From Streptomyces dengpaensis (GTDB taxonomy: Bacteria; Actinomycetota; Actinomycetes; Streptomycetales; Streptomycetaceae), in contig NZ_CP026652.1 in NCBI RefSeq assembly GCF_002946835.1, forward strand, positions 930,001 to 994,000: a stretch of 64,000 bases of DNA. Direction: 5' to 3'. A model generated the notes under the pieces. It ran no database searches. It saw only the letters and a program-made list of their open reading frames with translations, and had not been told where the DNA came from. Shown in pieces: positions 3,746 to 35,599 of the stretch. Made by a program: the position numbers and the translations under genes. Position 1 is the first letter of the stretch. The number at the start of each line of letters is the position of its first letter.

Positions 3746-3832
3746 GCGTCCCGCCCGGGACCCGCCGGGTGGCGGCCCGGTGCGTTCGTGGCGGGCGTGC
3801 GTGGCGTGGGTGATGGTCGGTATCGTCCGGGC

Positions 3833-7833: not shown

Positions 7834-8967
7834 ATGAGATTCCTGGAGCGCGAGCGCGCGGCCCTCGGCAAACTGCTGCCCGGCCTGGACGAGAGTCTGC
7901 GGGCCGTCCCGCTGCTGACACTGGAAGGACCGAAGAGCCCGGGAATCCGGCTGTTCCGGGAACACGGAGGTCCCGGGCTGCTGGCTCCGACCGCCTTCCA
8001 TGGCAGGGGTGCCACGGCCCTCGATGCCTTGCGGGTGCAGCGCGCCCTGGGCAGCCGCTCGCCCTCGCTCGCGGTGGCGACGACCATGCACCACTTCTCG
8101 ATGGCCACCCTGGTCGGGCTGAGCGACTCCGGTGAGGGCCTCGAGTGGATGCTCATCGAGGGCGTCGCGTCCGACAACCGGCTCATGGCGTCCGGTTTCG
8201 CCGAGGGACGCAGCGGCACCGGCATCCTGTCGCCGTCGATGGCCGCCACGGTGACGCCCGAGGGGGTGCGGATCACCGGGGTGAAACGGCCGTGCAGCCT
8301 GGCCCGTTCCATGGATCTGCTCACCGCCAGTGTGATGGTGCCGTGCGAGGAAGGCGACGGCCAGGAGCTGGCCGTGGCCCTCGTGCCCGCCGACAGCGAG
8401 GGGCTGAGCGTCAGCGGCTTCTGGTCCAGCAGCTTCCTCGCGGGCGCCGAGAGCGACCAGGTCACCCTGGACAACGTACTGGTGCCGAAGGAACTCCTCG
8501 TGCGGACCGCGTCACCGGTCGGAGCCCGTCTGGACGCGGTGCAGACGGCGGGCCTGGTCTGGTTCGAACTGCTCATGACGGGCAGTTATCTCGGCGCCGC
8601 GAGCGCCCTGGTGGAGCGCGTCCTGCTCAACGACCGGGTGCCCGACGCCGAGCGGGTCCGGCTGCTCGTGGAGATCGAGGGGGCGATGGCCGCCGCGGAG
8701 GGGCTGGCCCGGCGGGTGGACGAGGGCACCCCCGATGAATCCGCACTCGCCGACTCGCTGTACGCCCGGTACACCGTGCAGGACTCCCTCGCCCGGATCG
8801 TCCCTCGGGCGGTCGAACTCCTCGGCGGGCTCAACTTCATGACGTCCGACGAGGTCGGCTACCTCGCCGCCTGCGCCAACGGGCTCGCCCTCCATCCGCC
8901 GTCGCGGTCACGGATGACCGGCCCGCTGTCCGCCTATCTCGCGGACGAGCCGCTGACGGTCGCCTGA
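7834..8967 (+). CDS. Acyl-CoA dehydrogenase-fold flavoprotein, candidate VlmH-like amine N-hydroxylase
   Basis: A 377-residue protein with the acyl-CoA dehydrogenase fold: helical N-terminus, a beta region around 120-215 (LMASGFAEGRSGTG, GVKRPCSLA), and a C-terminal four-helix bundle. Isobutylamine N-hydroxylase VlmH of the valanimycin pathway belongs to this superfamily and works with a separate flavin reductase. The cluster encodes such a reductase (12306-12881) plus VlmA-, VlmO- and VlmB-like proteins, so hydroxylation of an alkylamine is the inferred role. An ordinary acyl-CoA dehydrogenase, for example making an unsaturated acyl chain, is the alternative. AAGGAG lies 11 nt before the ATG. 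First gene of the rightward arm of the cluster. Confidence 0.7.
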   Translation: MRFLERERAALGKLLPGLDESLRAVPLLTLEGPKSPGIRLFREHGGPGLLAPTAFHGRGATALDALRVQRALGSRSPSLAVATTMHHFSMATLVGLSDSGEGLEWMLIEGVASDNRLMASGFAEGRSGTGILSPSMAATVTPEGVRITGVKRPCSLARSMDLLTASVMVPCEEGDGQELAVALVPADSEGLSVSGFWSSSFLAGAESDQVTLDNVLVPKELLVRTASPVGARLDAVQTAGLVWFELLMTGSYLGAASALVERVLLNDRVPDAERVRLLVEIEGAMAAAEGLARRVDEGTPDESALADSLYARYTVQDSLARIVPRAVELLGGLNFMTSDEVGYLAACANGLALHPPSRSRMTGPLSAYLADEPLTVA

Positions 8968-8968
8968 T

Positions 8969-9047
8969 TGATCACATCGTGGGTCACATCATGGGTCACA
9001 TCATTGGTCACTGAGGGGATCACCTCGTTGATCACATGATTGATCGA
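8969..9047. promoter_or_regulatory. Seven helically phased 12-bp repeats upstream of the thioester-reductase operon
   Basis: Heptamers TGATCAC, GGGTCAC, GGGTCAC, TGGTCAC, GGATCAC, TGATCAC and TGATCGA start at 8969, 8981, 8993, 9005, 9017, 9029 and 9041, exactly 12 bp apart. The array starts right after the stop codon of the preceding gene and ends about 200 bp before the ATG at 9254, so it lies where a promoter for the 9254-12881 operon should be. Regular spacing of about one helical turn fits cooperative binding by a regulator; no regulator type can be named. Nothing else is seen in 9048-9253. Confidence 0.6.
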
Positions 9048-9253
9048 CTGGCTCGCCCGGGTCGCCCTGGACGCCCGCGGCACTCGGCACCGGCACCGGG
9101 CCGACGCCGGTTCGCCGGAGTCGGGCCGCATCCCGCGCCGTACGACCGAACCACTGTCCTCGTCAGCCTCCGAGCCGCCGTCCGACAGGCGATTGACACG
9201 AGTCATCGCACGACCAGCACCATCCGCTCACCCGACCGAGGGGGAACACCGAC

Positions 9254-10408
9254 ATGCCTCAGTCCCGGCCCCGGCCCAGCGCTCCGCCCACTCACCGACC
9301 GTCCACGAAACGTCCGACGCTGCTGCTCACCGGCGGCGCCGGGGTACTCGGCAGAGCCCTGATCGACGAGCTGTCCCGGGACATCCGGATCGTCTGCCTG
9401 CGCCATCGCACCCCGGTGAACGACCATCGGGTGCGTGAGGTCCACGCCGATCTGCTGGAGCCCGGACTCGGCCTGTCGCAGGCGGACTTCAAGCAGCTGG
9501 CCGCCGAGGTGGATCTGGTCGTGCACTCCGCCGCCGCGACCAACTGGAAGTCCGAGCCCGACGCCATCCGGCGTGCCAACCTGGACGGAACCTTGGCGAT
9601 GCTCGACCTCGCCGCCCTCGCCGGTGCGTCGTTCTACCACATGAGCACCGCCTTCGTGGCCAATCCGCTGGCCCCGGAGGAACAGGAGCGCTTCCCCGGA
9701 GCCGCCGCGTATCTCGCGTCGAAGACCGCGGCCGAGCAGGTGGTCCGTGAGGCCCCGGTGCCGGGAGTGATCCTGCGTCCCTCGGTGGTGATGGGCGACT
9801 CCGTCACCGGTCGTATCGCCGGGATGCAGGGGCTGACGCGGGCGTTGGGCGCGATCGTCAAGGGCCAGGTGCCCGTGCTGCCGGGCGCGCCCGAGGCGCG
9901 GATCGACATGGTGCCCCAGGACGTCGTCGCCCGTGCGGTGGGCGACCTGGTGCGCGGCGGGGTCACGGACGGCGAGTACTGGCTGACGGCCGGCGCGCAG
10001 GCACTGCTGCAGCGCGAAGTGGTCGACATGTGCCTGGAGTTCGCGGAAGGGTACGGAGCCCGGCCGCATCCGCCGCGGCTCATTCCGCTGGAGTCGGTGC
10101 ACCGTCTGCTGCTGCCCATGATCGAGGGCCCCACCTTCCCGGAGTCCTTGCGCCGCCGCTTCCACACCTACGCGGAACTGCTGCTGGTCTTCCAGCGGGC
10201 GCTCCCCTTCGAGTCGTCCCTGGGCTCACCGCACTGCGGCTCCGCGCTGTCGAAGGACGCCCTCAGGCAGGCGCTGGTCCGCAACCTCACCGCGTGGTCC
10301 ACCGGGCGCGGCGGCATGCGCGCCCACCGCAGGGCGCAGTCGTCGCAGGAACCGGCCCCGTGTGCGCAGCACACGCCGAGCGCGGAGACCCGGGAGCTGG
10401 CCTCATGA
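9254..10408 (+). CDS. Thioester reductase-like NAD(P)-dependent oxidoreductase
   Basis: A 384-residue stand-alone short-chain-type reductase similar to the terminal reductase domains of peptide synthetases and carboxylic acid reductases. TLLLTGGAGVLGRAL near residue 23 is the NAD(P)-binding loop; YLASKTAAEQ holds the Tyr-x-x-x-Lys pair; VILRPSVVMGD and RIDMVPQDVVARA follow as in the family. The likely job is reducing an acyl thioester to an aldehyde. The gene for a class III aminotransferase overlaps its stop codon by ATGA, which would turn the aldehyde into a primary amine. Ribosome site GAGGGGG precedes the ATG. Confidence 0.78.
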   Translation: MPQSRPRPSAPPTHRPSTKRPTLLLTGGAGVLGRALIDELSRDIRIVCLRHRTPVNDHRVREVHADLLEPGLGLSQADFKQLAAEVDLVVHSAAATNWKSEPDAIRRANLDGTLAMLDLAALAGASFYHMSTAFVANPLAPEEQERFPGAAAYLASKTAAEQVVREAPVPGVILRPSVVMGDSVTGRIAGMQGLTRALGAIVKGQVPVLPGAPEARIDMVPQDVVARAVGDLVRGGVTDGEYWLTAGAQALLQREVVDMCLEFAEGYGARPHPPRLIPLESVHRLLLPMIEGPTFPESLRRRFHTYAELLLVFQRALPFESSLGSPHCGSALSKDALRQALVRNLTAWSTGRGGMRAHRRAQSSQEPAPCAQHTPSAETRELAS

Positions 10409-11712
10409 CCGCCCCGGTGACCACCGCCGTCCCCACCGCCCCCGGCACGCCGGACACGCCCGGCCTGGCGGACCGCGGGCACATCGCCCGGCTCTACCGC
10501 GAGCATCTGTCCTCCGGCCGCGCGGTCCTCGGTTCGGTACTCGGCGGCATGCTGGAGACGGCGTCCGACGGTGCGTGGGTGTACACCGAGGACGGCCGCC
10601 CTTACCTCGACTTCGGCGGCTACGGCGTCTTCATCCTGGGGCACCGGCACCCCGCCGTGACGGCGGCCGTGCACCGGCAGGTGGACACGCATCCGCTGGC
10701 CGGGCGGGTGTTCCTGGAGCCGGTCGCCGCCCGCGCCGCCGGTGCTCTGGCCGCGCGCACTCCGGCCGGTCTCGACCACGTCCACTTCGTCAACTCCGGT
10801 GCCGAGGCCACCGAAGCCGGTCTGAAGCTGGCCCGGGCCCACGGCCACACGGCTCTCGTCAGCACCGCCGGCGGCTACCACGGAAAGACCCTCGGCGCGC
10901 TCACCGCCACCGCCAACCCGAAGTATCAGCAGCCCTTCCAGCCCCTCCTGCCAGACAGCACCGTGGTGCCGTACGGGGACACGGACGCGATGGCGGCCGC
11001 ACTCGCCGGACTCGGCCGCCGCGCCTGCGTGATCGTCGAGCCGGTGCAGGGAGAGGGCGGCGTACGCATTCCACCGCCCGGATATCTGGCGGAGGTGAGC
11101 AGGCTGTGCCGGACGTACGGCGCCTTCCTGATCGTCGACGAGATCCAGACCGGTCTCGGGCGGCTGGGCTCGTGGTGGGGCATGGAGGCCGAGGGTGCCG
11201 AGCGCGCGGCCCCCGATGTGCTGCTCGTCGGCAAGGGCCTCAGCGGAGGCGTGGTTCCGGTCGCGGCCATGGTCGCCACCGAGGCGGCGTACCGTCCCTT
11301 CTCACGGGACCCCTACCTGCACACCTCGACCTTCGCCGCCTCGCCGATCGCCTGCGCCGCCGCGTGGGCCGCGGTCGAGACCCTGGACCGGGAGGACCTC
11401 GTCGGCCGCGCCCAGGTGCTGGGCGACCGGCTGCTCACGGGCGTGCGGGCCGCCTGCGCCCCGTACAGCGGCGGTCTGGTGCACGAGGTGCGGGGCCGAG
11501 GACTGCTGATCGCCCTGGAGTTCACCGAGGAGCGGACCGTCGGTGAGCTGATCCTGGAGCTGGTCGGGCGCGGTGTCGTCGTGAACCACTCCCTCAACGC
11601 CACGCGGGTCCTGCGGCTGACGCCCCCCGCGATCATCGGCGACGAGGAGGTGCGGCTGTTTCTCGCCGCCCTGGCCGACGGGCTGCGCGCCGTCGCGACG
11701 CGCGTCGGCTGA
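10405..11712 (+). CDS. PLP-dependent class III aminotransferase
   Basis: A 435-residue fold-type I transaminase. HFVNSGAEATEAGLKLARA, GGYHGKTLGALT, VEPVQGEGGVRIP, LIVDEIQTGLGR (PLP-contacting Asp) and VLLVGKGLSGG (Schiff-base Lys, near residue 275) are all present. ATG 10405 overlaps the upstream stop (ATGA), so the two are translationally coupled. The inferred role is transamination of the fatty aldehyde made by the thioester reductase to give the alkylamine substrate for N-hydroxylation; the enzyme class is certain, the substrate is not. Confidence 0.88.
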   Translation: MTAPVTTAVPTAPGTPDTPGLADRGHIARLYREHLSSGRAVLGSVLGGMLETASDGAWVYTEDGRPYLDFGGYGVFILGHRHPAVTAAVHRQVDTHPLAGRVFLEPVAARAAGALAARTPAGLDHVHFVNSGAEATEAGLKLARAHGHTALVSTAGGYHGKTLGALTATANPKYQQPFQPLLPDSTVVPYGDTDAMAAALAGLGRRACVIVEPVQGEGGVRIPPPGYLAEVSRLCRTYGAFLIVDEIQTGLGRLGSWWGMEAEGAERAAPDVLLVGKGLSGGVVPVAAMVATEAAYRPFSRDPYLHTSTFAASPIACAAAWAAVETLDREDLVGRAQVLGDRLLTGVRAACAPYSGGLVHEVRGRGLLIALEFTEERTVGELILELVGRGVVVNHSLNATRVLRLTPPAIIGDEEVRLFLAALADGLRAVATRVG

Positions 11713-11827
11713 CGTGCGGGCAGCCATTGCCGAACGGCCGTCGCACAACAGCCGTCGCAGGACAGCCGGAGCGCCGTCAGAGGGCAACCGGCGATCAGAA
11801 AAACCTTCTGCGGAAAGGGAATCCCCC

Positions 11828-12313
11828 ATGCGTCACGTGACCGTACGACTGACCGCTCACGACGTCGACCCCGAGACCGCCTACCAGCGGATCCGCGACT
11901 TCCGCCGCTATCCCGAAGTGACCGAGACCGTCCGCGAGGTCGCGGTCCATCCGCCCCATGACGACGGCACGGTGGTGTCGGACTGGACCGTCAGCTTCCG
12001 CAACGGTCTGATGCGCTGGACGGAACGCGACGCCTTCTTCCCGGAGACCCGGACCATCGGATTCACCCAGCTCACCGGCGACTTCGAACTCTTCGAGGGC
12101 ACCTGGCGGTGCGCGTCCGGCGAGGACGGTACGGCGGTGACCTTCGACGCCGTGTTCGACCTGGGCATCCCCACCCTGGCGGAACTCCTGGATCCGGTGG
12201 CCGACTCAACCCTGCGCACCAACATCGAGCGGATCCTGCGCGGACTGCTCGGCAGGGTCACGCCCGCCCCGGCCCCCGCACTCGCCGACACCGCGGCCGC
12301 CGCGCATGGCTGA
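11828..12313 (+). CDS. SRPBCC-fold (polyketide cyclase/dehydrase-like) protein
   Basis: A 161-residue START/SRPBCC-like protein. RIRDFRRYPEVTETVREVAV, the central VSDWTVSFRNGLMRWTE strand pair, and the C-terminal helix TLRTNIERILRGLL match the aromatase/cyclase layout. It could bind a hydrophobic pathway intermediate; true polyketide cyclisation is doubtful because no polyketide synthase is in the window. AAAGGGA precedes the ATG by about 7 nt. The same AAGG(G)AATCCCCCATG start context recurs before the methyltransferase at 19162. Overlaps the next gene by 8 bp. Confidence 0.8.
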   Translation: MRHVTVRLTAHDVDPETAYQRIRDFRRYPEVTETVREVAVHPPHDDGTVVSDWTVSFRNGLMRWTERDAFFPETRTIGFTQLTGDFELFEGTWRCASGEDGTAVTFDAVFDLGIPTLAELLDPVADSTLRTNIERILRGLLGRVTPAPAPALADTAAAAHG

Positions 12314-12881
12314 CCTCACCCTCGCCCTGCGCGGCACGCCGGCCGCCGCGGGATGGGACGCGCTGCGGGACGAGCCCGGCCCGGACACCGTCCGCTGCCT
12401 CGGCCTCTACTCCAAACTCACGGCCGGCGTCACCGTCGTCACGGCCCTGGACGGCACCGGCCGTCCCACCGGGATGACGGTCTCCGCGCTGACATCGCTG
12501 TCGGCCAGGCCACCGCTCGTCCTCGCCTGTCTGCGGAGCGGTTCCCGCACTCTGAGTGCCTTGCGAGAACAAGGATCTTTTGCGGTCAGCTTGTTGACGG
12601 CCCATCAGAAGTCCATGGCCGAACGCTTCGCCGATTCTTCCGTGCCGCCCGCGCGACGCTTCACCGGCAGCCACGTACGGCAGGTGCTCGGTCTGCCGGT
12701 GCTCGTCGACGCGCTCGCGTGGTCGGTGTGCCTGGTCGAGGACGTACAGCCGTACGGCGATCACCACGCCGTCGTCGGACGCGTGATGGCGGTGGAGGTG
12801 AACGGCGGCCGGCCGCTGGTGTGGCACGACCGCGGCTTCCACACGCTCAACGGGCCCCGACCGACGTCGGCCGAGGACTGA
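12306..12881 (+). CDS. Flavin reductase-family protein (VlmR-like partner)
   Basis: A 191-residue protein of the FMN-binding split-barrel flavin reductase family: YSKLTAGVTVVTALDG at residues ~32-47, MTVSALTSLSARPPLVLACL, SFAVSLLTAHQ and a C-terminal PLVWHDRGFHTL. Such enzymes use NAD(P)H to supply FMNH2 or FADH2 to a separate monooxygenase. In the valanimycin pathway VlmR serves VlmH; here the likely partner is the acyl-CoA dehydrogenase-fold protein at 7834-8967. Last gene of the rightward operon, followed by a strong hairpin. Confidence 0.82.
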   Translation: MADLTLALRGTPAAAGWDALRDEPGPDTVRCLGLYSKLTAGVTVVTALDGTGRPTGMTVSALTSLSARPPLVLACLRSGSRTLSALREQGSFAVSLLTAHQKSMAERFADSSVPPARRFTGSHVRQVLGLPVLVDALAWSVCLVEDVQPYGDHHAVVGRVMAVEVNGGRPLVWHDRGFHTLNGPRPTSAED

Positions 12882-12900
12882 CCCAGTCATGGAGCCGTAA

Positions 12901-12930
12901 ACGCCCGGCCGGGGTCTCCCGGCCGGGCGT
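12901..12930 (+). terminator. Hairpin after the flavin reductase gene
   Basis: Perfect 13-bp inverted repeat ACGCCCGGCCGGG / CCCGGCCGGGCGT with a 4-nt loop (GTCT), 20 bp after the stop at 12881. No T-run, as usual in Streptomyces. Confidence 0.8.
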
Positions 12931-12997
12931 TCGCGCGCTCCGCACACCCACTCTCCAGCCCCGATTCCCGATCGATCACCCCGCCCTGGGAGGCCGT

Positions 12998-13867
12998 ATG
13001 TCCTTGCCCCGCATTCCCGGCATCAACTCCGAAAGTGCCGCTACCGAAATCGCCCGCACCCCCGAGCGGATGTCCGGCAACGCCCAGTCCATGGGCCACC
13101 GCGTCGGTGCCGCGCTCGACCCCGCCGCGGCGGAGGACGACTGGGGCCGGCCCCCGGACCAGAAGCGCCCGAACCCGGTCGTGCTGGCGCACGGCACGCT
13201 CGGCGACCGCGAGTCCGTCTGGCGGAAGATCGTGCCCGCACTCAGAACCGAAGGGCATCGCGTCTTCCGCCTGAACTACGGGGAGTTGCCCACCCTGCCG
13301 CGCCTGTACGGGCTCGGCGACATCCGCAAGTCGGCCCAGGAGCTGGCGGACTTCGTCGACCGGGTGCTGGCGGACACCAAGGCGGAACAGGTGGACCTCG
13401 TCGGCCACTCGCAGGGCGGGATGCTGCCGCACTACTACCTCAAGTACCTCGGCGGAACGGGGAAGGTGCGCCGCGTGGTGGGCATCGCGCCCAGCAGTCA
13501 CGGCGTCGAGGTGGCGGGGCTGACGGCACTGGTCCGTCAAGTCCCCGGTGTGCGGGGGGTCGTGGAGGACAAGGTGCTGTTCCGGGTGAGCCCCGCGTTC
13601 ACCCAGCTGCTGCACGACTCGGAGTTCGTGAGTGAGCTGGTGGCGCAGGGCGACACGGTGGACGGCGTCGGCTACACCGTCATCTGGACGACCCGGGACG
13701 AGCTGGTCCAGCCGCCCGAGTCACAGCAGCTGACGCCCACCCTGCCGGCGCACCCCGTCACGAACCTCTGTCTGCAGACCCTCGCCCCGGGGAACCGGAC
13801 CACGCACCTGGCCATGCCGTACGACCCGGTCGTCATCAGGGAGACGGTCAAGGCGCTGGCCGATTGA
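12998..13867 (+). CDS. Alpha/beta-hydrolase (esterase/lipase family)
   Basis: A 289-residue alpha/beta-hydrolase. VVLAHGTLGDRESVW gives the oxyanion loop and VDLVGHSQGGMLPHYYL gives the nucleophile elbow (Ser in GHSQGG). A late TTHLAMPYDP could supply the catalytic His. Related Streptomyces lipases are secreted, but no signal peptide is visible with the chosen start, so this one looks cytosolic. The ATG at 12998 has GGGAGG 5 nt upstream. It is separated from the azoxy operon by a terminator, so membership of that pathway is uncertain. Confidence 0.8.
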   Translation: MSLPRIPGINSESAATEIARTPERMSGNAQSMGHRVGAALDPAAAEDDWGRPPDQKRPNPVVLAHGTLGDRESVWRKIVPALRTEGHRVFRLNYGELPTLPRLYGLGDIRKSAQELADFVDRVLADTKAEQVDLVGHSQGGMLPHYYLKYLGGTGKVRRVVGIAPSSHGVEVAGLTALVRQVPGVRGVVEDKVLFRVSPAFTQLLHDSEFVSELVAQGDTVDGVGYTVIWTTRDELVQPPESQQLTPTLPAHPVTNLCLQTLAPGNRTTHLAMPYDPVVIRETVKALAD

Positions 13868-13880
13868 GCCACGTACGACG

Positions 13881-13921
13881 AAGGGGGTGGTGCGGGCCCG
13901 CGAGGCCCGCACCACCCCCTT
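13881..13921. terminator. Bidirectional hairpin between convergent genes
   Basis: Perfect 18-bp inverted repeat AAGGGGGTGGTGCGGGCC / GGCCCGCACCACCCCCTT with a 5-nt loop, followed by CTTTGT. It sits between the hydrolase (+) and the secreted protein (-) and should terminate both. Confidence 0.9.
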
Positions 13922-13934
13922 CTTTGTCGTCGGT

Positions 13935-14519
13935 TCAGTATGCCGTGCAGCGACCCCTCTCACCGGGCCAGATGCACACCTGGCCGAAGACGTCGAAGCC
14001 CGCTACGCCGTCCGGGTTGATCTTGTCGAACCGGGGCCTGGGGATCTGGATACCGTTGATCTGGTCACCGGCGAGCGGTCCGCTCGTGATGGTGCGGTCG
14101 GGCACCGGGCTGCCGTTCTTGAGGTCGCCCTTGTAGTAGAGGCTGCCGGCCTCGCCGGTGTTCCAGGTACCCACGTCTTTGCCCTCGACCGAGAACGTCG
14201 GCGGCAGCGCACCGAATCTCCCGATGCCTTCGATGTCCCAGACGACATCGGTCAGGTGCGGCGCCGCGCCACTGGGCGACCGGCAGTCCAGGTACCTGAC
14301 GTGCCCGGTCACCCGGGCCTCCTTGACCAGCACGCCGAGCGACGGAGTGAAGTCCAGCTCGGCGTCGAGTCGGCACACGAGGTCGGGAACGGGCTCCGGG
14401 GCTGCCTGGGCCGCGGGAGCGGCCAGAGCCGTCCCCGCCATGAGGACGGCGGCCAGCACCGACCTCCGCCCGACGCGGGCCCGTCGGGCGGACACCTTCA
14501 CTTGCGCTGAGAACGTCAC
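13935..14519 (-). CDS. Secreted protein of unknown function
   Basis: A 194-residue protein that I do not recognise. The N-terminus has basic residues (ARRARVGRR), a hydrophobic stretch SVLAAVLMAGTALAAPAA and a likely signal-peptidase site after AQA, near residue 38. The mature part has four Cys (VCRL, LDCR, QVCIW and GRCTAY), possibly two disulfides. GTG at 14519 is chosen because GAGAGGAG lies about 9 nt upstream; the longer frame reads back through the desaturase gene. It is the last gene of the leftward arm, so it may simply be co-transcribed. Confidence 0.7.
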   Translation of the reverse strand: MTFSAQVKVSARRARVGRRSVLAAVLMAGTALAAPAAQAAPEPVPDLVCRLDAELDFTPSLGVLVKEARVTGHVRYLDCRSPSGAAPHLTDVVWDIEGIGRFGALPPTFSVEGKDVGTWNTGEAGSLYYKGDLKNGSPVPDRTITSGPLAGDQINGIQIPRPRFDKINPDGVAGFDVFGQVCIWPGERGRCTAY

Positions 14520-14540
14520 TGCGTCCAGCTCCTCTCTTTT

Positions 14541-14600
14541 CAGACCGTGGCACGATCGCCACGGAGGCTTCAGGCCGTGGCCGTGCTGCCACGGAGGACT
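14541..14600. repeat. Two tandem 30-bp hairpin units
   Basis: Units 14541-14570 and 14571-14600 share the layout CAG(A/G)CCGTGGC-N6-GCCACGGAGG. Each forms a perfect 7-bp stem CCGTGGC/GCCACGG with a 6-nt loop. The second unit encodes the C-terminus of the desaturase; the first lies after its stop. They may attenuate or process the transcript between desaturase and secreted-protein genes. Confidence 0.75.
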
Positions 14601-15622
14601 TCGCTCGCGGAACCGAGGTGTTGCGCGAGGTCGCGGTACGACTCCAGGACCCCGGTCTCGACGTACGGGATGTCCCGCTCGGCGCAGAACTCCTTGACGA
14701 CGGGGTACGCGCGCCGCAGCGCGGAGCGGGGCATGCCCGGGAAGAGGTGATGCTCGATCTGGTAGTTCAGGCCGCCGTAGAAGAAGTCGCCGAGGTAGCC
14801 GGTGGGAAGGGTGCGCGAGGTGAGCACCTGGCGCTCCAGCCAGCTCCATTCCTCGCCCACGCGGGTCGGCAGGCCTTTGTGGTTGACGGCGAAGGCGAGG
14901 CCGAGCAGATAGCCGAGGAGGACCTGGTGGACCGCCAGGAACAGCAGCACGCTCGGCCAGGGCAGGAGCACGAAAAGCGCGCCGAAGAAGAGCACAGCGT
15001 GCAGGACCATCAGCCCGCCCTCAAGGAGCGGTTGGCGCAGGGCGCGGCGGCGCAGCGCGATGACTCCGGCGATGCGCAGGACCACGGCCTCCAGGCCCAG
15101 CAGCGGGAAGAACAGATACCGCTGGTTGGCGGCGAGGAAGCGGGCGAACCCTTTGCGGTCCTGGGCCTGTTCGGGCGCGAAGATCGCCACGCGGCGCAGG
15201 ATGTCCGGGTCGAGTTCGAGGTGGTTGGGGTGGTTGTGGTGCCGGTTGTGGTGCTGCACCCACCAGCCGAAGCACACCCCGAGCATCAGGTTCCCGTGGA
15301 CCAGGCCGAGCGCCTGGATGAACTTCCGGGACCGGGTGATCTGCCGGTGACCGGCGTCGTGCACCAGGAAGGCGAGCTGCTCGTGCCAGACGGCGAGCCA
15401 CACGGCCGCCAGGACCACCTTCCACCAGACGCCGTCGGAGAGGGCGAGGGCCGCCCAGCCGACGGCGTTCATCAGCCAGACCACGACGATGCCGGTCACG
15501 TACTGCCCCTTGCGGGGCCGCATGAGCCCGGCTGCCTGGACGCGCCGGGTCAGTTCGCGGAAGTCCTCGTCGAGGGAGCCTGGTTCATGCGGTGAGGAGT
15601 TGACTGCCGGGTTGTCGGTCAT
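14570..15622 (-). CDS. Fatty-acid desaturase (membrane diiron type)
   Basis: A 350-residue integral membrane desaturase with all three histidine boxes: HDAGHRQ (~residue 89), HHNRHHNHPNH (~124) and QIEHHLFPG (~288). Four hydrophobic segments lie between them. Such enzymes insert a double bond into an acyl chain or acyl-derived lipid using O2. Aliphatic azoxy metabolites often carry an unsaturated alkyl chain, so a tailoring role is plausible but inferred. ATG 15622; the diiron VlmB-like gene ends 54 bp upstream on the same strand. Confidence 0.88.
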   Translation of the reverse strand: MTDNPAVNSSPHEPGSLDEDFRELTRRVQAAGLMRPRKGQYVTGIVVVWLMNAVGWAALALSDGVWWKVVLAAVWLAVWHEQLAFLVHDAGHRQITRSRKFIQALGLVHGNLMLGVCFGWWVQHHNRHHNHPNHLELDPDILRRVAIFAPEQAQDRKGFARFLAANQRYLFFPLLGLEAVVLRIAGVIALRRRALRQPLLEGGLMVLHAVLFFGALFVLLPWPSVLLFLAVHQVLLGYLLGLAFAVNHKGLPTRVGEEWSWLERQVLTSRTLPTGYLGDFFYGGLNYQIEHHLFPGMPRSALRRAYPVVKEFCAERDIPYVETGVLESYRDLAQHLGSASEVLRGSTATA

Positions 15623-15676
15623 CGGTGTACCACCGACCCTTTCCGTGTTCTGCGTGGGTGGAGCCGGGCAGGGGAA

Positions 15677-16636
15677 TCACGCGGTCAGGCCCATGTCGGC
15701 GAGCCGTGACTCCTGGGTGGCGCGCGCCCATTCGGCGGCCGTCAGCATCCGCTCCTCGGCCGTGGTGTCGACCAGACGGCGGCCCGGCCACAGCTCGTAG
15801 TCGCCGGCGATGTCGCGGTGCTGCTCCAAGCCCTGCTGGTAGAGCTGCTCCCGACGGAATGTCAGTTCCTGGACGGGCAGCCGGGACCACAACTCCGTGC
15901 CATGCGCGACGAGTTCCCTGACACGGTCCAGCTCCTCGGGATGACGTCGTAGATGGCGCCGTACGATCGTGCTGCCGACCGAGAGATGCCGGATCTCGTC
16001 GATGCCCGCGGCCCGTTCGATCTCCGCGGCCGGCGGATCGAAGGGCCGCCACTTGCGCTCGCTCAGCTCGGCGGTCGGCGCGAGCACTCCTTCGACCAGG
16101 ACGGTCAGGGTGATGACACCGCCGATGTAGTCCCGGTCCTGCTCCATGACCGCCAGCCCGAACCGCTCCAGGGGTACGAGGATCGCGTCCCGGTCGGCCC
16201 CGGCGAGCTCCTCCATGGTGGACTCCAACCGGTCGGCGGGCGTGCCGAGTTCGAGGAGGTGGCCGCGGAAGGCGTAGGCGTGGCGGGCCTCGTCCATCAG
16301 CTGGGAGGTGTAGAAGTCCATCCCGGCGAGGTCGGGTGCGTACGCGACGAGGAAGGAGAGGGCGCGGGTCGCCTTCTCCTCCGCCATCGAACGGAAGGCG
16401 AGCTCCCGCATGACGGCCTGGCGCAGCGGTCCGTCCGCCATCATGTGCGCCGGGACCGGTACGTCGGCGGACCGGCCCATCGGGTCGCCGCCGAGGGTGC
16501 CTTCCGGTACGGCTCGGAACCAGTAGCCGAGGTCGCAGCCCTCCGGTGTCAGCTCGGTGTGCAGGGCGCCTTCCAGGAGGCTCGGGGCGCGGTTCCGGTC
16601 GGCTTCCGCCGGGAACTTCGCGATGGATGTGGTCAT
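15677..16636 (-). CDS. VlmB-like non-haem diiron oxidase (ferritin-like fold)
   Basis: A 319-residue all-helical protein with two E-x-x-H motifs, DEARH at 115-119 and DEIRH at 213-217, and further Glu on the pairing helices (MAEEKA ~85, LVEGVL ~181). This is the pattern of a diiron four-helix bundle. In the valanimycin pathway the diiron enzyme VlmB oxidises a hydrazine intermediate to the azoxy group (from memory of the literature). Its position among VlmA- and VlmO-like genes supports the same role here. A different diiron N-oxygenase is the alternative. ATG 16636 has GAAAGG about 10 nt upstream; a 26-bp repeat array separates it from the VlmA-like gene. Confidence 0.72.
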   Translation of the reverse strand: MTTSIAKFPAEADRNRAPSLLEGALHTELTPEGCDLGYWFRAVPEGTLGGDPMGRSADVPVPAHMMADGPLRQAVMRELAFRSMAEEKATRALSFLVAYAPDLAGMDFYTSQLMDEARHAYAFRGHLLELGTPADRLESTMEELAGADRDAILVPLERFGLAVMEQDRDYIGGVITLTVLVEGVLAPTAELSERKWRPFDPPAAEIERAAGIDEIRHLSVGSTIVRRHLRRHPEELDRVRELVAHGTELWSRLPVQELTFRREQLYQQGLEQHRDIAGDYELWPGRRLVDTTAEERMLTAAEWARATQESRLADMGLTA

Positions 16637-16668
16637 TTCAGCCTTTCTGAACCAGGGATTGCTGATGG

Positions 16669-16798
16669 CGACTGCTGGTGGGTGACGCAGGTGTCGACTG
16701 CCGGTGGCGGACGCGGGCGGCGACTGCCGGTGGCGGACGCGGGCGGCGACTGCCGGTGGCGGACGCGGGCGGCGACTGCCGGCGCCGTTCAGACCGAC
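16669..16798. repeat. 26-bp tandem repeat, five units
   Basis: CGACTGCCGGTGGCGGACGC-type units start at 16669 (degenerate), 16695, 16721, 16747 and 16773, exactly 26 bp apart. The array fills the gap between the VlmA-like and VlmB-like genes and reaches the stop codon of the VlmA-like gene at 16789, so the last codons of that gene lie in the repeat. Confidence 0.9.
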
Positions 16799-17793
16799 TT
16801 GGTGAGGCGCATCAGCTGCCATACGGCGGCGGGGCTCACGCCGCCCTGGAACGCCAGGTATTCCGGTTCGATGAGCTGCGGGCGCCACTTGAGCTTGAAG
16901 GACTCCTGGGCGGCCGCCGGGTAGATGGCCTGCCCCTTGGCCGCCAGGAGTCCCACGCAGCGGTGCAGGACGCGGCTGGTCGGGCCAGGCGCATCGGTGT
17001 CCTGGCCGAGCTGCACGAACGGAGTGAACCCGAGGTGCAGCCAGCCGCACCCCTCGTCCTGGAACCGGCGCAGCGCGGTGGCGAACATCAGCTCCACCGT
17101 GCCGGGCGGGGCGTCCGGCAGCCGTCGTGTGAGGTCGTACAGCCAGCCGGCCCGTTCGCCGAACACGGGCGAGTAGGACACGTAACCGACGGTCCGCCCC
17201 TGATGGACGGCGGTGAACAGGCGCCGGTGCGGGGCGCCCGGGCCGCCGCGTTCGCCGATGAGGAACTCGAGTTCCTTGACGTGGCGGCCTTTCGCGCGCA
17301 GCCAGGCGGCGTCCACCGCGTCGAGGGCCTCAGCATCCTGCTCACCCACGGGCACTTCGGCGGCGGTGACGCCTTCCCTTCGGGCCCGGTTGACCATGTT
17401 GCGCACTTTGACCATGCGCTGGCCGCCCAGGCTGTAGCCCTCGAGCGCGATGCTGAAGGAGGCGCCGAACTGGTTGACCACGAAGCCGTGCCCCGCGTGC
17501 AACTCGGCCGCGGTTCGGGAGAGTTGTACGGCCACGACCCGGCGCCCCTCGCCTTCGGCCCGGTCGAGCAGCGCGGTCAGAAGCCGCTCCTGGTCCCGGT
17601 CCGCGCAGACGGGTCCGCCCAGCTGGAACAGATGACGCCGTCCGCCTTCCCGGTACGGGACGAAGCCGTCGACGCCGTCCGCGTGGAAGCGCCGGTTGCC
17701 CCTGTTCATGGCGAGGAACGCGCTGCTGTGGCTGCCGTGGCGGCGCAGCATCTCGTACGCCTGCGTGTCCGCGAGCGCCTGAGGGGGGTTCAC
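16789..17793 (-). CDS. DUF2156 protein, candidate VlmA-like aminoacyl-tRNA-dependent transferase
   Basis: A 334-residue protein of the DUF2156 family (C-terminal domain of lysylphosphatidylglycerol synthase MprF, double GNAT fold). Visible: VKVRNMVNRARREG, LDAVDAAWLRAKGRHVKELEFLIGE split over the middle, YVSYSPVFGERAGWLYDLTRR, and LHLGFTPFVQ near the C-terminus. VlmA of valanimycin belongs here and moves serine from seryl-tRNA to an alkylhydroxylamine. GTG 17793 overlaps the upstream stop as GTGA, so it is coupled to the VlmO-like gene. No seryl-tRNA synthetase (VlmL-like) gene lies in the window; the housekeeping enzyme could serve. Confidence 0.75.
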   Translation of the reverse strand: MNPPQALADTQAYEMLRRHGSHSSAFLAMNRGNRRFHADGVDGFVPYREGGRRHLFQLGGPVCADRDQERLLTALLDRAEGEGRRVVAVQLSRTAAELHAGHGFVVNQFGASFSIALEGYSLGGQRMVKVRNMVNRARREGVTAAEVPVGEQDAEALDAVDAAWLRAKGRHVKELEFLIGERGGPGAPHRRLFTAVHQGRTVGYVSYSPVFGERAGWLYDLTRRLPDAPPGTVELMFATALRRFQDEGCGWLHLGFTPFVQLGQDTDAPGPTSRVLHRCVGLLAAKGQAIYPAAAQESFKLKWRPQLIEPEYLAFQGGVSPAAVWQLMRLTKSV

Positions 17794-18263
17794 CGGGCCG
17801 CCGCCTCGTGCCAGGGCACGGTCGCGAAGTCCCGTAGCGCGGACTGGACGGACGGATGCGGAACCGGCTCGAAGGCCACCGTGAACGACTTGGCGAAGTT
17901 GCCGAACAGGGCCCGGTCCCCGAACAGATGGATCGGCAGCACCAGCAGCGCCCACTCCCAGCCGTACGCCAGAACCCAGGCGCCGAGGACCGCGCCCTGG
18001 AAGCTGAGACTGTGCATGGTGTTGTAGAGCACGTAGTAGACGCGGGAGACCCTCTTGTCGGGGCTGCGGTGGTAGGCGAGCGCCCCGGGCAGATAGCCGA
18101 TGACGTCGACGTACGCGAAGAGGACGACGGCGACCCACCAGCGCACCTCGGCCAGGTGCGCGAGGAAGAATCCGGCGGCCACCAGGAGCCCGAGCAGATA
18201 CTCGAGCCGCAGGAGCCGGTAGGTGGTGGGGGTCTGGCAGAGATTGTGCCCGTCCACGGTCAC
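17790..18263 (-). CDS. Small integral membrane protein, candidate VlmO-like N-N bond-forming factor
   Basis: A 157-residue membrane protein with about four hydrophobic segments: YLLGLLVAAGFFLAHL (~19-34), WWVAVVLFAYVDVIGYLPG (~39-57), a region around YNTMHSLSFQGAVLGAW, and EWALLVLPIHLFGDR. Conserved-looking polar residues lie in the membrane parts (D, H, N, H). It is placed between the carboxyl methyltransferase and the VlmA-like gene with GTGA overlaps at both ends (18263/18260 and 17793/17790). In valanimycin the membrane protein VlmO is reported to convert the O-seryl hydroxylamine into the N-N product. I infer the same role from size, topology and context, not from a confirmed sequence match. 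Confidence 0.62.
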   Translation of the reverse strand: MTVDGHNLCQTPTTYRLLRLEYLLGLLVAAGFFLAHLAEVRWWVAVVLFAYVDVIGYLPGALAYHRSPDKRVSRVYYVLYNTMHSLSFQGAVLGAWVLAYGWEWALLVLPIHLFGDRALFGNFAKSFTVAFEPVPHPSVQSALRDFATVPWHEAAAR

Positions 18264-19162
18264 CGCCCGTCGGCCGGGATCGTCGCGGAGGGGACCGTCG
18301 CGGTCGGGAGCGTCGCCGTGACCAGGATCATGCTGTTCGTCTCGACATCCGGGAACTCCGCGAGAAGCGGGGCGAACCGCTCGACCGCGTACGGCAGCGC
18401 CAGCAGGTCCGCGACCTGGGCCCGCCAGCCGTGGCCGCCCCACCAGCGCTCGGGGTCCGCGAGATGCCAGACCCACGGGGTTCCCGAGCCGGACAGGGCC
18501 TCCAGCCACGGCTTCACGAAGGGCGAGTCGGCGGCATCGGCGTTCAGGCACTCGGCACCGAGGGTGCTGCCCGGCGCGGAGAGCTTGCTCACGGCGGCGA
18601 TCAGGCGCTCCACGGCCTCCGGCTGGAGGTAGAAGAGCAGCCCCTCGCACAGCCAGGCGGTGGGCAGGTTCGGGTCGAAGCCCGCGGCGACAAGCGCCCC
18701 ACGCCAGTCGCCCAGCAGGTCGGCCGCGACCGTGGTGCGGCGGGCGGTGTCCGGGGCGCGGCCCGCGAGAACCCGCTCCTTGAAGGCCTGCACGGCGGGC
18801 AGGTCGACCTCGAAGACATGGGTTCGGTCCGGCCAGTCGAGCCGGTGAGCCCGGGTGTCCAACCCGGCGCCCAGCAGGACCACTTGACGGCATCCGGCGC
18901 GCGTGGCGGCGAGCAGGTGGTCGTCGAAGAAGCGGGTGCGCACGGCGAGCCAGTCGGGCAGCACCCGCTGCAGGACACCGGCGCCGGGCGGGGCACCGGC
19001 CGCCCCCGCGGCGGCCAGGAATTCGGCGGCCAGCGGATCGCTGAAGAGCGCGTCCGCCCGTGCGGTTTCCTGGGCCCGCATGCGTACGGTCCACAGGGCC
19101 GTCTCCGACACCCCTTCAAGGGAGGAACCGGAGCGCGGAGCGTCTTGGTGCGTCATGGGCAT
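18260..19162 (-). CDS. SAM-dependent O-methyltransferase (leucine carboxyl methyltransferase family)
   Basis: A 300-residue class I methyltransferase of the LCMT/TIGR00027 type. SETALWTVRMRAQETARADALFSDPLA is the family N-terminus (read in two parts), VVLLGAGLDTRAHRLDWP is the SAM loop, VFEVDLPAVQAFK follows, and AWLCEGLLFYL is the typical LxEGLxxYL motif. The family often methylates carboxyl groups, which would fit a methyl ester on an amino-acid-derived azoxy product. ATG 19162 has AAGGA 8 nt upstream. First gene of the methyltransferase-VlmO-VlmA overlap group. Confidence 0.8.
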   Translation of the reverse strand: MPMTHQDAPRSGSSLEGVSETALWTVRMRAQETARADALFSDPLAAEFLAAAGAAGAPPGAGVLQRVLPDWLAVRTRFFDDHLLAATRAGCRQVVLLGAGLDTRAHRLDWPDRTHVFEVDLPAVQAFKERVLAGRAPDTARRTTVAADLLGDWRGALVAAGFDPNLPTAWLCEGLLFYLQPEAVERLIAAVSKLSAPGSTLGAECLNADAADSPFVKPWLEALSGSGTPWVWHLADPERWWGGHGWRAQVADLLALPYAVERFAPLLAEFPDVETNSMILVTATLPTATVPSATIPADGR

Positions 19163-19265: not shown

Positions 19266-20837
19266 TCAGCGGGGCGCCCGGCGGCGGTCGAACAGCAGGG
19301 CCGCGGCGCCCAGGGCCAGCAGGCCGCGCGACGGCGACCAGGGCCGCTGCCCGCCCATGGCCGCGGGCGTGTACGGCTCGTGGACCTGGAGCGCGAGCTG
19401 GCGGTTGGCGGCGTCGGAGAGGAGTCCGCGCCACTGTTCGGGGGCGGTCGCGGTGGCGGCGAGCAGGTCCATCGTGTTGCGGGCGACCTGGTCCAGGGAG
19501 AAGTACTCGCGGATCAGCGCCAGGATGATCCCGCGCGCCTCCGCCTTGAAGACGTCCGCGAGGGCGATGTCCGGGGCGAGACAGCGCACCGAACCCTCCA
19601 GATTCGCGAAGGACTTGCCCAGCAGTGAGATGGCGGGCGACGAGCCGATGCCCCGTCGGGTCGCCTTCTCCAGGACGGTGGTCAGGGACACCCCGAAGTT
19701 GATGTCTTCGAGGGAGGCGGTGGCGACCTTGGGAACGAGCGCGGCCATGTCGGCCGCGAACGCGGGCAGGTTCGACCAGGCGGTGACGCGGCCCATGTCG
19801 GCCCACGCGTGCGCCAGTCCGTGGCCGTCGTTCTGGGCGATGGCCATGAGGAGCGGCAGCAGCTGCAGACTCGTACGCCGGTCGAGCCGGCCGACCATGC
19901 CCCAGTCGATCAGGGTGGCCGGGCCGCCGGGCAGCGCGAAGACGTTGCCCGCGTGCGGGTCTGCGTGGAACATCCGGTCGACGAAGTACCCGCGGTACAT
20001 GAACCGCAGCAGGTCCTTGCCGATCTCGGTGCGTTCCCGGTCGCTGAACGAGCGGCGGTCGAGGTGGCGCACGGAGGCGCCCGGCGCCAGCGACTGGACG
20101 AGCACCTTGGGGGTGGCGTGGATGACCCGGGGCACTTCCAGCGTCGGGTAGCGCCGGATGTTCTCGCGGGCCTCGTCCATGTTGCGGGCCTCGCCGGTGA
20201 AGTCGAGCTCGGGTTCCATCGCGTCGAAGATGGAACCGAGCATCGCCTCCACGTCGATGACCTCGTTGAAGCGGGGAGCGGTACGGGCCACGATCTTGGA
20301 CGCCTTGCGCATCAGGGCCATGTCCGCCTGGACCGCGTCCCGGATGCCCGGCCGCTGCACCTTGACCACCGCGGGCCGCCCGCCGGGCAGGGTCACTCGG
20401 TACACCTGGGCCAGGGACGCCGCTCCCAGCGGCCTGGTCGTCTCGATGTCGTCGAAGCGGAGTTTCCAGTCCGCGCCCAGCTCATGCCGGAGCACGGGTT
20501 CGAAGACGGAGAAGGGCTGGACGTCGACCTGGTCGTGCAGGTTCTGCAGCTCGCCGATCATGGAGGCGGGCACCATGTCGGGCCGGGTGGAGAGGATCTG
20601 ACCGAGTTTCACATAGAACGGGCCGAGGCTCTCCAGTGCGTGCCGCACCGCCTTGGCCCGGCGCGCCCCTTCCTCCGAGGCGGCCCCGTCCCCGGCGGAG
20701 GCCTCGGCTTCCGCCGGGGACAGCGGGGACCGCCCGGCCCGCCGGCGCTCCCGCGTCATATGGCCGACCTCGTCGGCGACGAGGCTTCCCAGTACCTTCA
20801 CAACCAGCCGGAGCCGACTGCCGAGCATGGCACTCAT
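19266..20837 (-). CDS. AarF/ABC1/UbiB-family atypical kinase
   Basis: A 523-residue protein with the UbiB layout: N-terminal KxGQ-type segment FYVKLGQILSTRPDM (~95), a nucleotide-binding region LGAASLAQVYRVTL with the family's Ala-rich loop, VVKVQRPGIRD, EPELDFTGEARNM, FHADPHAGNVFAL (catalytic loop ~285) and LIDWGMVGRLD. A C-terminal hydrophobic LLALGAAALLFD could be a membrane anchor. Family members support quinone and other isoprenoid-lipid metabolism. Its presence beside an N-N bond cluster is unexplained. AGGAGG lies 9 nt upstream of ATG 20837; 103 bp separate its stop from the methyltransferase. Confidence 0.9.
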   Translation of the reverse strand: MSAMLGSRLRLVVKVLGSLVADEVGHMTRERRRAGRSPLSPAEAEASAGDGAASEEGARRAKAVRHALESLGPFYVKLGQILSTRPDMVPASMIGELQNLHDQVDVQPFSVFEPVLRHELGADWKLRFDDIETTRPLGAASLAQVYRVTLPGGRPAVVKVQRPGIRDAVQADMALMRKASKIVARTAPRFNEVIDVEAMLGSIFDAMEPELDFTGEARNMDEARENIRRYPTLEVPRVIHATPKVLVQSLAPGASVRHLDRRSFSDRERTEIGKDLLRFMYRGYFVDRMFHADPHAGNVFALPGGPATLIDWGMVGRLDRRTSLQLLPLLMAIAQNDGHGLAHAWADMGRVTAWSNLPAFAADMAALVPKVATASLEDINFGVSLTTVLEKATRRGIGSSPAISLLGKSFANLEGSVRCLAPDIALADVFKAEARGIILALIREYFSLDQVARNTMDLLAATATAPEQWRGLLSDAANRQLALQVHEPYTPAAMGGQRPWSPSRGLLALGAAALLFDRRRAPR

Positions 20838-20994: not shown

Positions 20995-21627
20995 TCAGCC
21001 TCCCTTCCTGGCCGCGGGCGCCCGTCCCCCGCCGGTCACGGCGCCGGTGACCTGCTGGACGTTCTCCAGCACGCCCACGAGGGACGAGACGAGCTCGGAG
21101 AGCTGGGCGATCTGCCCCGGCAGTGCGGCCAGTCCCTCCGCCATGTCGGCCGCTCCCGACACGGCCGATGTCACGCCGCCCGCCACCTGTCCGAGCGCGC
21201 CCAGCGGATTGGCTCCGCCCGCGGCACCTGCGGCACCGCTGAGGGCGGCGAGGGGGTTCGCCCCGCCCCCGGCGATGGCGGCGAGCGGGTTGGGCGCCCC
21301 GCCCGCGAACGCGGCCAGCGGATTGGCGGCGCCTCCGGCGAGCGCGGCCAGCGGGTTGGCCGCGCCGGCTCCGGCCGCGGCGTTGGCGGCGTTCGCGAGC
21401 GCGGCCACCGGATTGGCCACACCGCCGAGGGCGGACAGGGCACTGACCGTCCTCAGGACATCGCCCGGCAGTCCGCTCAGCGCCTGATACGGGTTTCCCG
21501 GATTGAACCAGTCGGAATGACTGTCGTCGTCTTTCCGGTCGAGAATCTCGTCGAACGCCTTCTTGGTGCTGTCGGCGATATCGCCGATAAATTCCTTGAT
21601 GGTGTCCTGGGTATTGTTTTTGCCCAC
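20995..21627 (-). CDS. Ala/Gly/Asn-rich repeat protein of unknown function
   Basis: A 210-residue protein that I do not recognise. Residues 1-60 are charged and helical (TQDTIKEFIGDIADSTKKAFDEI in pieces). From ~70 to ~150 there are six or seven near-repeats of a decapeptide of the type GGANPLAALA (variants GAANPLAALA, GAPNPLAAIA, GGANPLGALG). The C-terminal part MAEGLAALPGQIAQLSELVSSLVGVLENVQ (read in two parts) is amphipathic helix, reminiscent of phasin- or coat-type proteins. No signal peptide is seen. Start GTG 21627, with AAGGG 10 nt upstream. It lies between a sigma factor and an AarF kinase on the same strand. Confidence 0.7.
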   Translation of the reverse strand: MGKNNTQDTIKEFIGDIADSTKKAFDEILDRKDDDSHSDWFNPGNPYQALSGLPGDVLRTVSALSALGGVANPVAALANAANAAAGAGAANPLAALAGGAANPLAAFAGGAPNPLAAIAGGGANPLAALSGAAGAAGGANPLGALGQVAGGVTSAVSGAADMAEGLAALPGQIAQLSELVSSLVGVLENVQQVTGAVTGGGRAPAARKGG

Positions 21628-21734: not shown

Positions 21735-22313
21735 TTATGCCGCGACGCCGTCCAGGGCCTTCGCACAGACGAGCCGCAACCGCGCCCGCCCCCGGGTGAA
21801 CGCGCCCTCGGCCGCCTTCACGGAGATCTGGTGCATGCGCGCGAATTCCAGCGTGGAGATTCCATGGGCGCGGGCGAGCACCACCTGGCGCTCACGGCCC
21901 CGCAGCAGGTGGACCTGGCGCAGCAGCCAGCGCCCGAAGTCCTGATCGCACACGCCCTCGTCTGGCGCCTCCGGCGCGTCCACGTCCGCCGCACGGCGCA
22001 ACAACCGGCGCCTGCGCTCCAGTTCACGGTAGTGGTCTACACACAGCCGCAAGGCCACCGTGGTCAGAAAGGGACCGATCCGCTCGCGGTCCAGATTGCC
22101 GTGGGCGGCTGCCCGCAGCATCGCTTCCTGTACGCAGTCCTCCGCGTCCTGGGCGTTCGGGAGCCGCCGGCGGACCAGCCGCATCAGACGCTCCCGGTGA
22201 CTGGCGATCACATCCCAGGACAGCTCGCGCCGCATCTCCTCCTGGGATTCATGGATAGCTCGATCGACGATACCGAATTCACCTAAGTGGTCTGCGAAAT
22301 TCCTGTTGTCCAT
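21735..22313 (-). CDS. Sigma-70 family RNA polymerase sigma factor (ECF-like)
   Basis: A 192-residue two-domain sigma factor. Region 2 runs about 35-95 (RLMRLVRRRLPNAQDAEDCVQEAML then VALRLCVDHYRELERR). Region 4 runs about 130-180 (LLRGRERQVVLARAHGISTLEFARM read in two parts, then ISVKAAEGAFTRGRARLR). No anti-sigma gene is adjacent; the next gene on the strand is the ANPLAAL-repeat protein. ATG 22313 is chosen; the frame extends to 22439 without better signals. It may transcribe its own downstream genes, but no promoter motif could be tested. Confidence 0.82.
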   Translation of the reverse strand: MDNRNFADHLGEFGIVDRAIHESQEEMRRELSWDVIASHRERLMRLVRRRLPNAQDAEDCVQEAMLRAAAHGNLDRERIGPFLTTVALRLCVDHYRELERRRRLLRRAADVDAPEAPDEGVCDQDFGRWLLRQVHLLRGRERQVVLARAHGISTLEFARMHQISVKAAEGAFTRGRARLRLVCAKALDGVAA

Positions 22314-35594: not shown

Positions 35595-35599
35595 GCACC

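Follow-up and report, generated by a model that had tools for sequence, protein, structure and literature searches.

Introduction

The azodyrecin pathway has been described with the S-adenosylmethionine (SAM) methyltransferase Ady1, whose activity was shown in vitro, the putative dehydrogenase Ady2, which would give the aldehyde, the monooxygenase Ady3/Ady10, the aminotransferase Ady4, the VlmO-like Ady6, the VlmA-like Ady7, the VlmB-like Ady8, and the desaturase Ady9, and the ady clusters contain no aminoacyl-tRNA synthetase gene (PMC9379638). The published azodyrecin cluster records are LC712331, LC712332, and BGC0002805, and activities are in print for the relatives VlmH/VlmR, VlmA, VlmO, VlmB, and Ady1. 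According to PMC11705231, VlmO is the hydrazine-forming enzyme and its essential residues are D51, H82, H110, and D114. Here we analyze a 64,000-nt stretch of the 8.71 Mb genome of Streptomyces dengpaensis (NZ_CP026652.1, positions 930,001 to 994,000; hereafter the window), in which positions 7834-19162 very probably hold an azodyrecin-type azoxy lipid biosynthetic gene cluster, with the reactions leading to its product predicted from sequence. This kind of cluster is already published, and the window adds a member to the azodyrecin class.

Nine main-text enzyme roles are common to the window and the ady (Streptomyces sp. RM72, A1C6) and azd (S. mirabilis P8-A2, BGC0002805) clusters (PMC9379638), and neither they nor the window cluster include an aminoacyl-tRNA synthetase gene. 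The likeness is drawn from described roles, and the main text of that paper describes no lipase-like, UbiB-like kinase, repeat-protein, or sigma factor genes, whereas the window has them. Of the valanimycin (vlm) core, the window also has VlmA-, VlmO-, and VlmB-type genes, together with candidate counterparts of VlmH and VlmR. The valanimycin amine is isobutylamine, formed from valine by the decarboxylase VlmD, whereas the amine in the window would come from acyl reduction and transamination. The Pfam scan of the cluster genes shows no decarboxylase, and no VlmD-like search of the genome was made. In addition, vlm has VlmL, a second seryl-tRNA synthetase. The original prediction for this locus, made from its letters, had noted that VlmL is lacking, and this extends to the whole genome, since it carries one seryl-tRNA synthetase gene (a single PF02403 match) and one alanyl-tRNA synthetase gene, in line with the synthetase-free ady clusters.

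Gene content and core enzymes

A codon-position gene caller and the list of open reading frames (ORFs) place twelve genes in two facing groups at 7834-19162. By family, the azodyrecin gene set is all present, namely an LCMT methyltransferase, an aldehyde-forming enzyme, an aminotransferase, and a desaturase beside the azoxy core. The genes named in the original prediction (an acyl-CoA dehydrogenase-fold protein, flavin reductase, DUF2156 transferase, 157-aa membrane protein, diiron protein with DEARH and DEIRH, thioester reductase, aminotransferase, desaturase, and LCMT methyltransferase) are all accounted for, and the SRPBCC, lipase-like, secreted-looking, UbiB-like kinase, repeat-protein, and sigma factor genes are additions to it.

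7834..8967, plus strand: VlmH/Ady3-like flavin-dependent N-monooxygenase, acyl-CoA dehydrogenase fold, 377 aa, expected alkylamine N-hydroxylase
9254..10408, plus strand: short-chain dehydrogenase/reductase (SDR), thioester-reductase-like, putative Ady2 role (fatty acyl thioester to aldehyde); PF07993 137.9 bits, TIGR01746 below its cut-off
10405..11712, plus strand: class III aminotransferase, putative Ady4 role (aldehyde to alkylamine); PF00202 292 bits
11828..12313, plus strand: SRPBCC/START-like protein, proposed aldehyde or amine carrier or hand-off protein; translation may instead begin upstream, at 11714
12306..12881, plus strand: flavin reductase, putative VlmR/Ady10 role; PF01613 132.8 bits
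13070..13867, plus strand: lipase-like alpha/beta hydrolase, cluster-linked accessory; PF00561/PF01674
13935..14501, minus strand: small secreted-looking protein, accessory; no Pfam match at E 1
14570..15622, minus strand: fatty acid desaturase, putative Ady9 role (1',2' olefin); PF00487 130.8 bits
15677..16636, minus strand: VlmB/Ady8-type ferritin-like diiron oxygenase (predicted hydrazine to azo to azoxy); PDB 6d9f/8wvr match
16789..17793, minus strand: VlmA/Ady7-type aminoacyl-tRNA transferase ("DUF2156"); PF09924 200.6 bits against a cut-off of 27.5
17790..18263, minus strand: VlmO/Ady6-type membrane hydrazine synthase (predicted), 157 aa; four VlmO residues at equal spacing
18260..19162, minus strand: LCMT-type SAM methyltransferase, putative Ady1 role (methyl ester); PF04072 183 bits, TIGR00027

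The plus-strand group reads in the order listed, from the VlmH-like to the lipase-like gene, and the minus-strand group reads from the methyltransferase through the VlmO-, VlmA-, and VlmB-like genes and the desaturase to the secreted-looking protein. Stop/start overlaps link the reductase to the aminotransferase, the SRPBCC gene to the flavin reductase, and the methyltransferase to the VlmO- and VlmA-like genes. The methyltransferase starts at the ATG at 19162, preceded by AAGGAA, and a longer form from 19186 scores 256 bits against the TIGR00027 cut-off of 93.6.

The residues of the membrane protein and the fold of the diiron protein argue most directly for an azoxy core, and the conservation of both was followed in a survey of 81 loci, comprising the window and 80 named VlmO loci (the best 80 of 241 confirmed relatives), some of which are clipped at contig ends, so that some absences may be false. 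In the profile search, neither protein matches a Pfam family above cut-off, and the membrane protein has sub-threshold matches alone, the best being PF14079 (DUF4260; E 0.037), which is also the family given for Ady6 in PMC9379638. Its residues D53, H84, H112, and D116 correspond to the four VlmO residues with identical spacing and an offset of two, and they are kept in 81/81 loci and in 21/21 sequences of a smaller alignment. An AlphaFold2 model of VlmO built from 21 sequences is poor (pLDDT 69.8, pTM 0.54) and was set aside. The best solved match of the diiron protein is PDB 6d9f/8wvr, "Putative VlmB homolog" (E 1.2e-95, residues 6-317 aligned). E86, E116, H119, E182, E214, and H217, which we take from the fold to be the metal ligands, are kept in the alignment with 6d9f and in all 61 loci that have the protein.

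PF09924 has a single further match elsewhere in the genome, near C1:3884 kb. The nearest solved relatives of the VlmA-like protein are aminoacyl-phosphatidylglycerol synthases, and a VlmA-type role fits because these are aminoacyl-tRNA-dependent lipid synthases. The best solved relatives of the VlmH-like protein in the PDB are DszC-type flavin monooxygenases and acyl-CoA dehydrogenases. The VlmH/VlmR-like pair is a candidate two-component N-monooxygenase, with a fitting fold and neighborhood and with the PF02770 match of the VlmH-like protein below cut-off. The original prediction had read the locus as an azoxy cluster and had named, as what would speak against this, matches of the DUF2156, membrane, and diiron proteins outside azoxy clusters. 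This was checked and the azoxy assignment stood, with the VlmO residues, the structural match to VlmB, and the recurrence described below all in its favor.

Two repeats lie within the cluster. A 26-bp unit in 4.5 copies is found at 16666-16782, between the VlmB- and VlmA-like genes. The intergenic repeat at 8958-9045 was considered as an operator and rejected, its hexamer being absent from the gaps between the VlmH-like and reductase genes of eight relatives.

Recurrence of the cluster in Streptomyces

VlmO-like genes are present in all 81 loci, VlmH in 79, the aminotransferase in 74, SRPBCC in 73, VlmA in 68, VlmB in 61, the flavin reductase in 60, the desaturase in 30, the SDR reductase and LCMT in 14 each, and the UbiB-like kinase in 12. 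The reductase and LCMT stand together in 13 of the 15 loci having either, and each occurs without the other once. The gene order of the window, including the lipase-like and secreted-looking genes, is found in 8/80 named loci (L054-L060, L063); three same-order loci print two neighbors swapped, an effect of sorting overlapping stop-to-stop frames. With G040, the same order and orientation are found in nine other genomes, indicating that the block is not a chance arrangement.

A genus-wide search of 392 genomes found VlmO relatives in 82, the window's own counted. Five other genomes (G040, G370, G097, G077, G153) carry VlmO proteins 88-94% identical to that of the window, and the remaining ones are at most 66% identical. 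These five have the same gene order, with the kinase and sigma factor behind; in three of them the VlmH match is clipped by the end of the stretch, and G370, G097, G077, and G153 are not counted beside the eight named loci. In the VlmO tree, the window falls within a set of 10 rows (100/100), all with the reductase and VlmB, that includes S. regalis, S. olivochromogenes, S. diastatochromogenes, S. albicerus, S. spinoverrucosus, and S. purpureus. Seven rows of the tree are under half filled and the very long branches of L060, L083, and L086 are a trimming effect, and only the set containing the window was used.

The secreted-looking protein is found in 9/81 loci, that is, the window and the eight sharing its order. 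The lipase-like gene (at E 1e-60) is found in 11 of 150 genomes, which are the 12 genomes with the kinase (see below) minus G079, and every one of them has either a cluster of the azodyrecin type or the second layout, known from G063. In S. purpureus (L061), the cluster genes form one run. Because neither the lipase-like nor the secreted-looking gene is present in L061 or L062, both are accessory.

Several points weigh against an azodyrecin-type assignment. The likeness to the Ady, Azd, and Vlm proteins is one of families and key residues, and the cluster is a candidate producer by its genes. The VlmH-like protein matches PF02770 at E 8.2e-05, under the family cut-off, and the SDR reductase scores 126 bits against the TIGR01746 cut-off of 213, below that NCBIfam level. 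The lipase-like, secreted-looking, and SRPBCC genes and the three genes at the cluster edge have no place in the main-text pathway of PMC9379638. Reductase and VlmB also occur together in two rows outside the window's set, S. spiralis (L060, badly trimmed) and L117. In G079 (L146), the VlmH, reductase, and aminotransferase genes are followed directly by the kinase, repeat-protein, and sigma factor genes, with the middle genes missing, and this remnant shows that azodyrecin-type clusters do decay. The cluster in the window looks intact from its genes.

A conserved SRPBCC gene linked to the aminotransferase

The SRPBCC gene is present in 73/74 loci with the aminotransferase and in 0/7 loci without it. 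Many SRPBCC-fold proteins hold hydrophobic ligands in a cavity, and PF03364 presumably covers proteins of this kind. The protein is most likely a carrier or hand-off protein for the aldehyde or amine. Alternatively, it might catalyze a reaction such as imine formation or a rearrangement, which we regard as the less likely role; the gene is absent from 7/7 loci that lack the aminotransferase and keep VlmO, so that the N-N step does not generally depend on it. Kinship with COQ10 was also considered and set aside, no COQ10-named row being among the matches listed, and COQ10 serves below as a comparison, not as a statement of membership. Ady5, which PMC9379638 leaves undescribed in its main text, may correspond to the SRPBCC gene. 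No publication joining azoxy, SRPBCC, and gene cluster was found; the pairing of UbiB with azoxy was not searched.

A UbiB-like kinase, a repeat protein, and a sigma factor at the cluster edge

Three further genes follow the methyltransferase.

19266..20828, minus strand: UbiB/COQ8-like atypical kinase, cluster-linked; PF03109 183 bits against a cut-off of 22.9
20995..21627, minus strand: repeat protein, 210 aa, kinase partner by co-occurrence with the kinase
21735..22235, minus strand: ECF-type sigma factor, probable regulator at the cluster edge; PF04542, TIGR02937 over cut-off

The kinase has an ABC1/UbiB domain and COQ8A/ADCK3 is among its solved relatives, but it scores 278 bits against the TIGR01982 equivalog cut-off of 487.6 and is therefore not called the ubiquinone UbiB itself. 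The kinase, repeat protein, sigma factor, and lipase were searched for in 150 genomes. At 73% identity or more, the kinase is found in 12 of these, the window's own included. The repeat protein, in which "NPLAALAG"-like units lie between a conserved N-terminal motif and a helix-like C-terminal end, is found in 13, namely all 12 kinase genomes and G022; in seven of these the match consists of short, fragmented low-complexity stretches, and the N-terminal motif alone also recovers all seven. The sigma factor (at least 68% identity) is found in 14, comprising the 12 with the kinase and G091 and G128.

These three genes could be neighbors of the cluster by chromosomal position only. G091 and G128 carry the sigma factor without the kinase or VlmO, and G022 carries the repeat protein and a kinase (65% identical) beside ketosynthase- and carrier-protein-looking genes and has no VlmO, which favors such a view. 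Against it, 10 of the 12 kinase genomes have VlmO within 10 kb on the same contig, and in the other two the kinase adjoins cluster genes, namely LCMT, flavin reductase, SRPBCC, and aminotransferase on a short contig in G001 and the VlmH-reductase-aminotransferase remnant in G079. The kinase is also next to LCMT in two different cluster layouts, that of the window and that of L126/G063. Linkage by position only is therefore unlikely in our judgment.

Related kinases are found near other biosynthetic-looking genes. Neighbors of distant kinases (52-58% identity), read by eye, look like terpene, isoprenoid, polyketide, or acyl-ligase genes in 7/9 loci, the other two being L156 and L157; the neighborhood script did not locate the kinase of L157. 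A 37-position profile of the N-terminal motif, run against 1,642 six-frame ORFs of the nine distant loci, gives three matches at E of 5 or less (L155, 2.2e-09; L158, 0.0028; L161, 0.011), each in an ORF upstream of the kinase, and nothing in the other six loci. The motif is thus significant in L155, as it is in the training row L152, whereas its matches in L158 and L161 are weak; in others of the distant loci a partner is suggested by resemblance read by eye, and L157 shows none. Run on the ORFs of the 81 loci, the profile finds ten ORFs only, all in kinase loci and mostly training rows. Separately, a small low-complexity ORF is often seen upstream of the UbiB-like kinase in L152-L161.

Kinases of the AarF/ABC1/UbiB family also occur in the tiancimycin enediyne cluster as tnmR2 and tnmR3, which are like the window's kinase by family and belong to unrelated chemistry. 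According to PMC9464397, deletion of tnmR3 lowers the titer about fivefold and causes premature cell death, deletion of tnmR2 has no effect on production, and TnmR3 is proposed to be a sensor kinase. The kinase partner looks like a small protein with a conserved N-terminal amphipathic-looking motif, a low-complexity middle, and a helix-like C-terminus. We put forward, as a speculation of low probability, that the kinase and its partner form a dedicated membrane-lipid module common to azodyrecin-type and several unrelated hydrophobic Streptomyces products, which in the azoxy pathway, together with the SRPBCC carrier and by analogy to COQ8 and COQ10 in coenzyme Q synthesis, might move the fatty amine, hydroxylamine, and hydrazine to and from VlmO.

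Product class and VlmO clusters lacking VlmB

The original prediction had left the product class broad, with azodyrecin, elaiomycin, and maniwamycin types; the tailoring genes and clade now place the product more narrowly in the azodyrecin type. Another aliphatic azoxy product, of the elaiomycin, maniwamycin, or KA57-A type, would be conceivable in that the azoxy core is common, most of the 81 loci having the aminotransferase, SRPBCC, VlmH, and VlmO; one of them is L086 of S. atratus, the species named for elaiomycin in PMC11705231. L086 has VlmH, aminotransferase, SRPBCC, VlmO, flavin reductase, VlmB, VlmA, and desaturase genes in common with the window. However, where the window has the SDR reductase, L086 has an aldehyde-dehydrogenase-type gene (PF00171, a family named from the L066 member) beside VlmH and ketoacyl-synthase genes, and no SDR reductase, LCMT, or UbiB-like gene is found within its 20 kb. 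Both the tailoring genes and the clade of the window are those of the azodyrecin type, and a product of another type is thus very improbable.

VlmB is missing from 20/81 loci, among them L064, L065, L066, L068, L071, L073, L075, L079, L099, and L126. The first nine of these share a block of methyltransferase, P450, and MMPL exporter genes, with the families read on L066. In a whole-genome search of 15 genomes, chosen mostly for VlmB missing near VlmO, 11 give no VlmB match at an E threshold of 0.001 (G136, G118, G007, G063, G133, G001, G079, G026, G142, G135, and G113); all 11 carry VlmO, and two are less than 80% complete. VlmO therefore seems able to serve without VlmB. Other oxidases are encoded nearby, such as the FAD-dependent oxidoreductase (PF01266) of G063 and L094 and the P450 of L066, a locus from S. 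djakartensis. The products of VlmB-less clusters may not be azoxy compounds, or a diverged oxidase may lie below the search threshold in these genomes. That the cluster in the window is silent, or yields a hydrazine or hydrazone lipid in vivo with the azoxy step idle, draws on these VlmB-less genomes and is scarcely credible, as VlmB is present in the window with its conserved residues, beside desaturase and transferase genes.

Other features of the window

A catechol siderophore-like cluster, whose product class we presume, lies at 31296-39759 and has genes for an SDR, a chorismate-binding enzyme, an AMP ligase, an isochorismatase, a carrier protein, and a C-A-T-TE peptide synthetase. At 3126-3759, a 173-bp unit is repeated in tandem (3.7 copies, 92% matches), and a 925-aa frame at 40507-43284 has an in-frame V-E-F/V-E-S run and no Pfam match at 1e-10.

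Discussion

A pathway can be proposed for the azodyrecin-type cluster in the window. The SDR reductase would convert a fatty acyl thioester to the aldehyde, which the aminotransferase would turn into an alkylamine, and the SRPBCC protein would most likely hold and pass on the hydrophobic aldehyde or amine. The VlmH/VlmR-like enzymes would N-hydroxylate the alkylamine, and the VlmA-like enzyme would draw on the aminoacyl-tRNA pool of the cell to form an ester between the hydroxylamine and an amino acid, which is probably alanine. The VlmO-like membrane enzyme would then rearrange the ester to a hydrazine, forming the N-N bond, and the VlmB-like diiron enzyme would oxidize the hydrazine to the azoxy group. 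Methyl ester formation would fall to LCMT, and the desaturase would introduce the olefin next to the azoxy group. For the UbiB-like kinase, its repeat-protein partner, and the sigma factor, a part in regulation, self-tolerance, or membrane hand-off is most likely. For S. dengpaensis, we infer each of the reactions, which amino acid is used, how long the chain is, and what the SRPBCC, kinase, repeat-protein, lipase-like, and sigma factor genes do. The order of steps agrees with that of the original prediction, from thioester through aldehyde, amine, hydroxylamine, and O-aminoacyl ester to the N-N bond and azoxy group with methyl ester formation and desaturation, and it is the order proposed in PMC9379638.

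The occurrence of VlmO relatives in the genus indicates that the azoxy class is common in Streptomyces, and the window adds a complete, intact-looking producer candidate for rare N-N bond natural products. The VlmB-less loci suggest that hydrazines or other N-N compounds are the products of some "azoxy" clusters. To a specialist, the helper genes may be the less expected part. The SRPBCC gene almost always accompanies the aminotransferase, and this offers a role open to testing for a conserved gene, and the kinase and its partner raise the question of how actinobacteria handle hydrophobic or self-toxic products.

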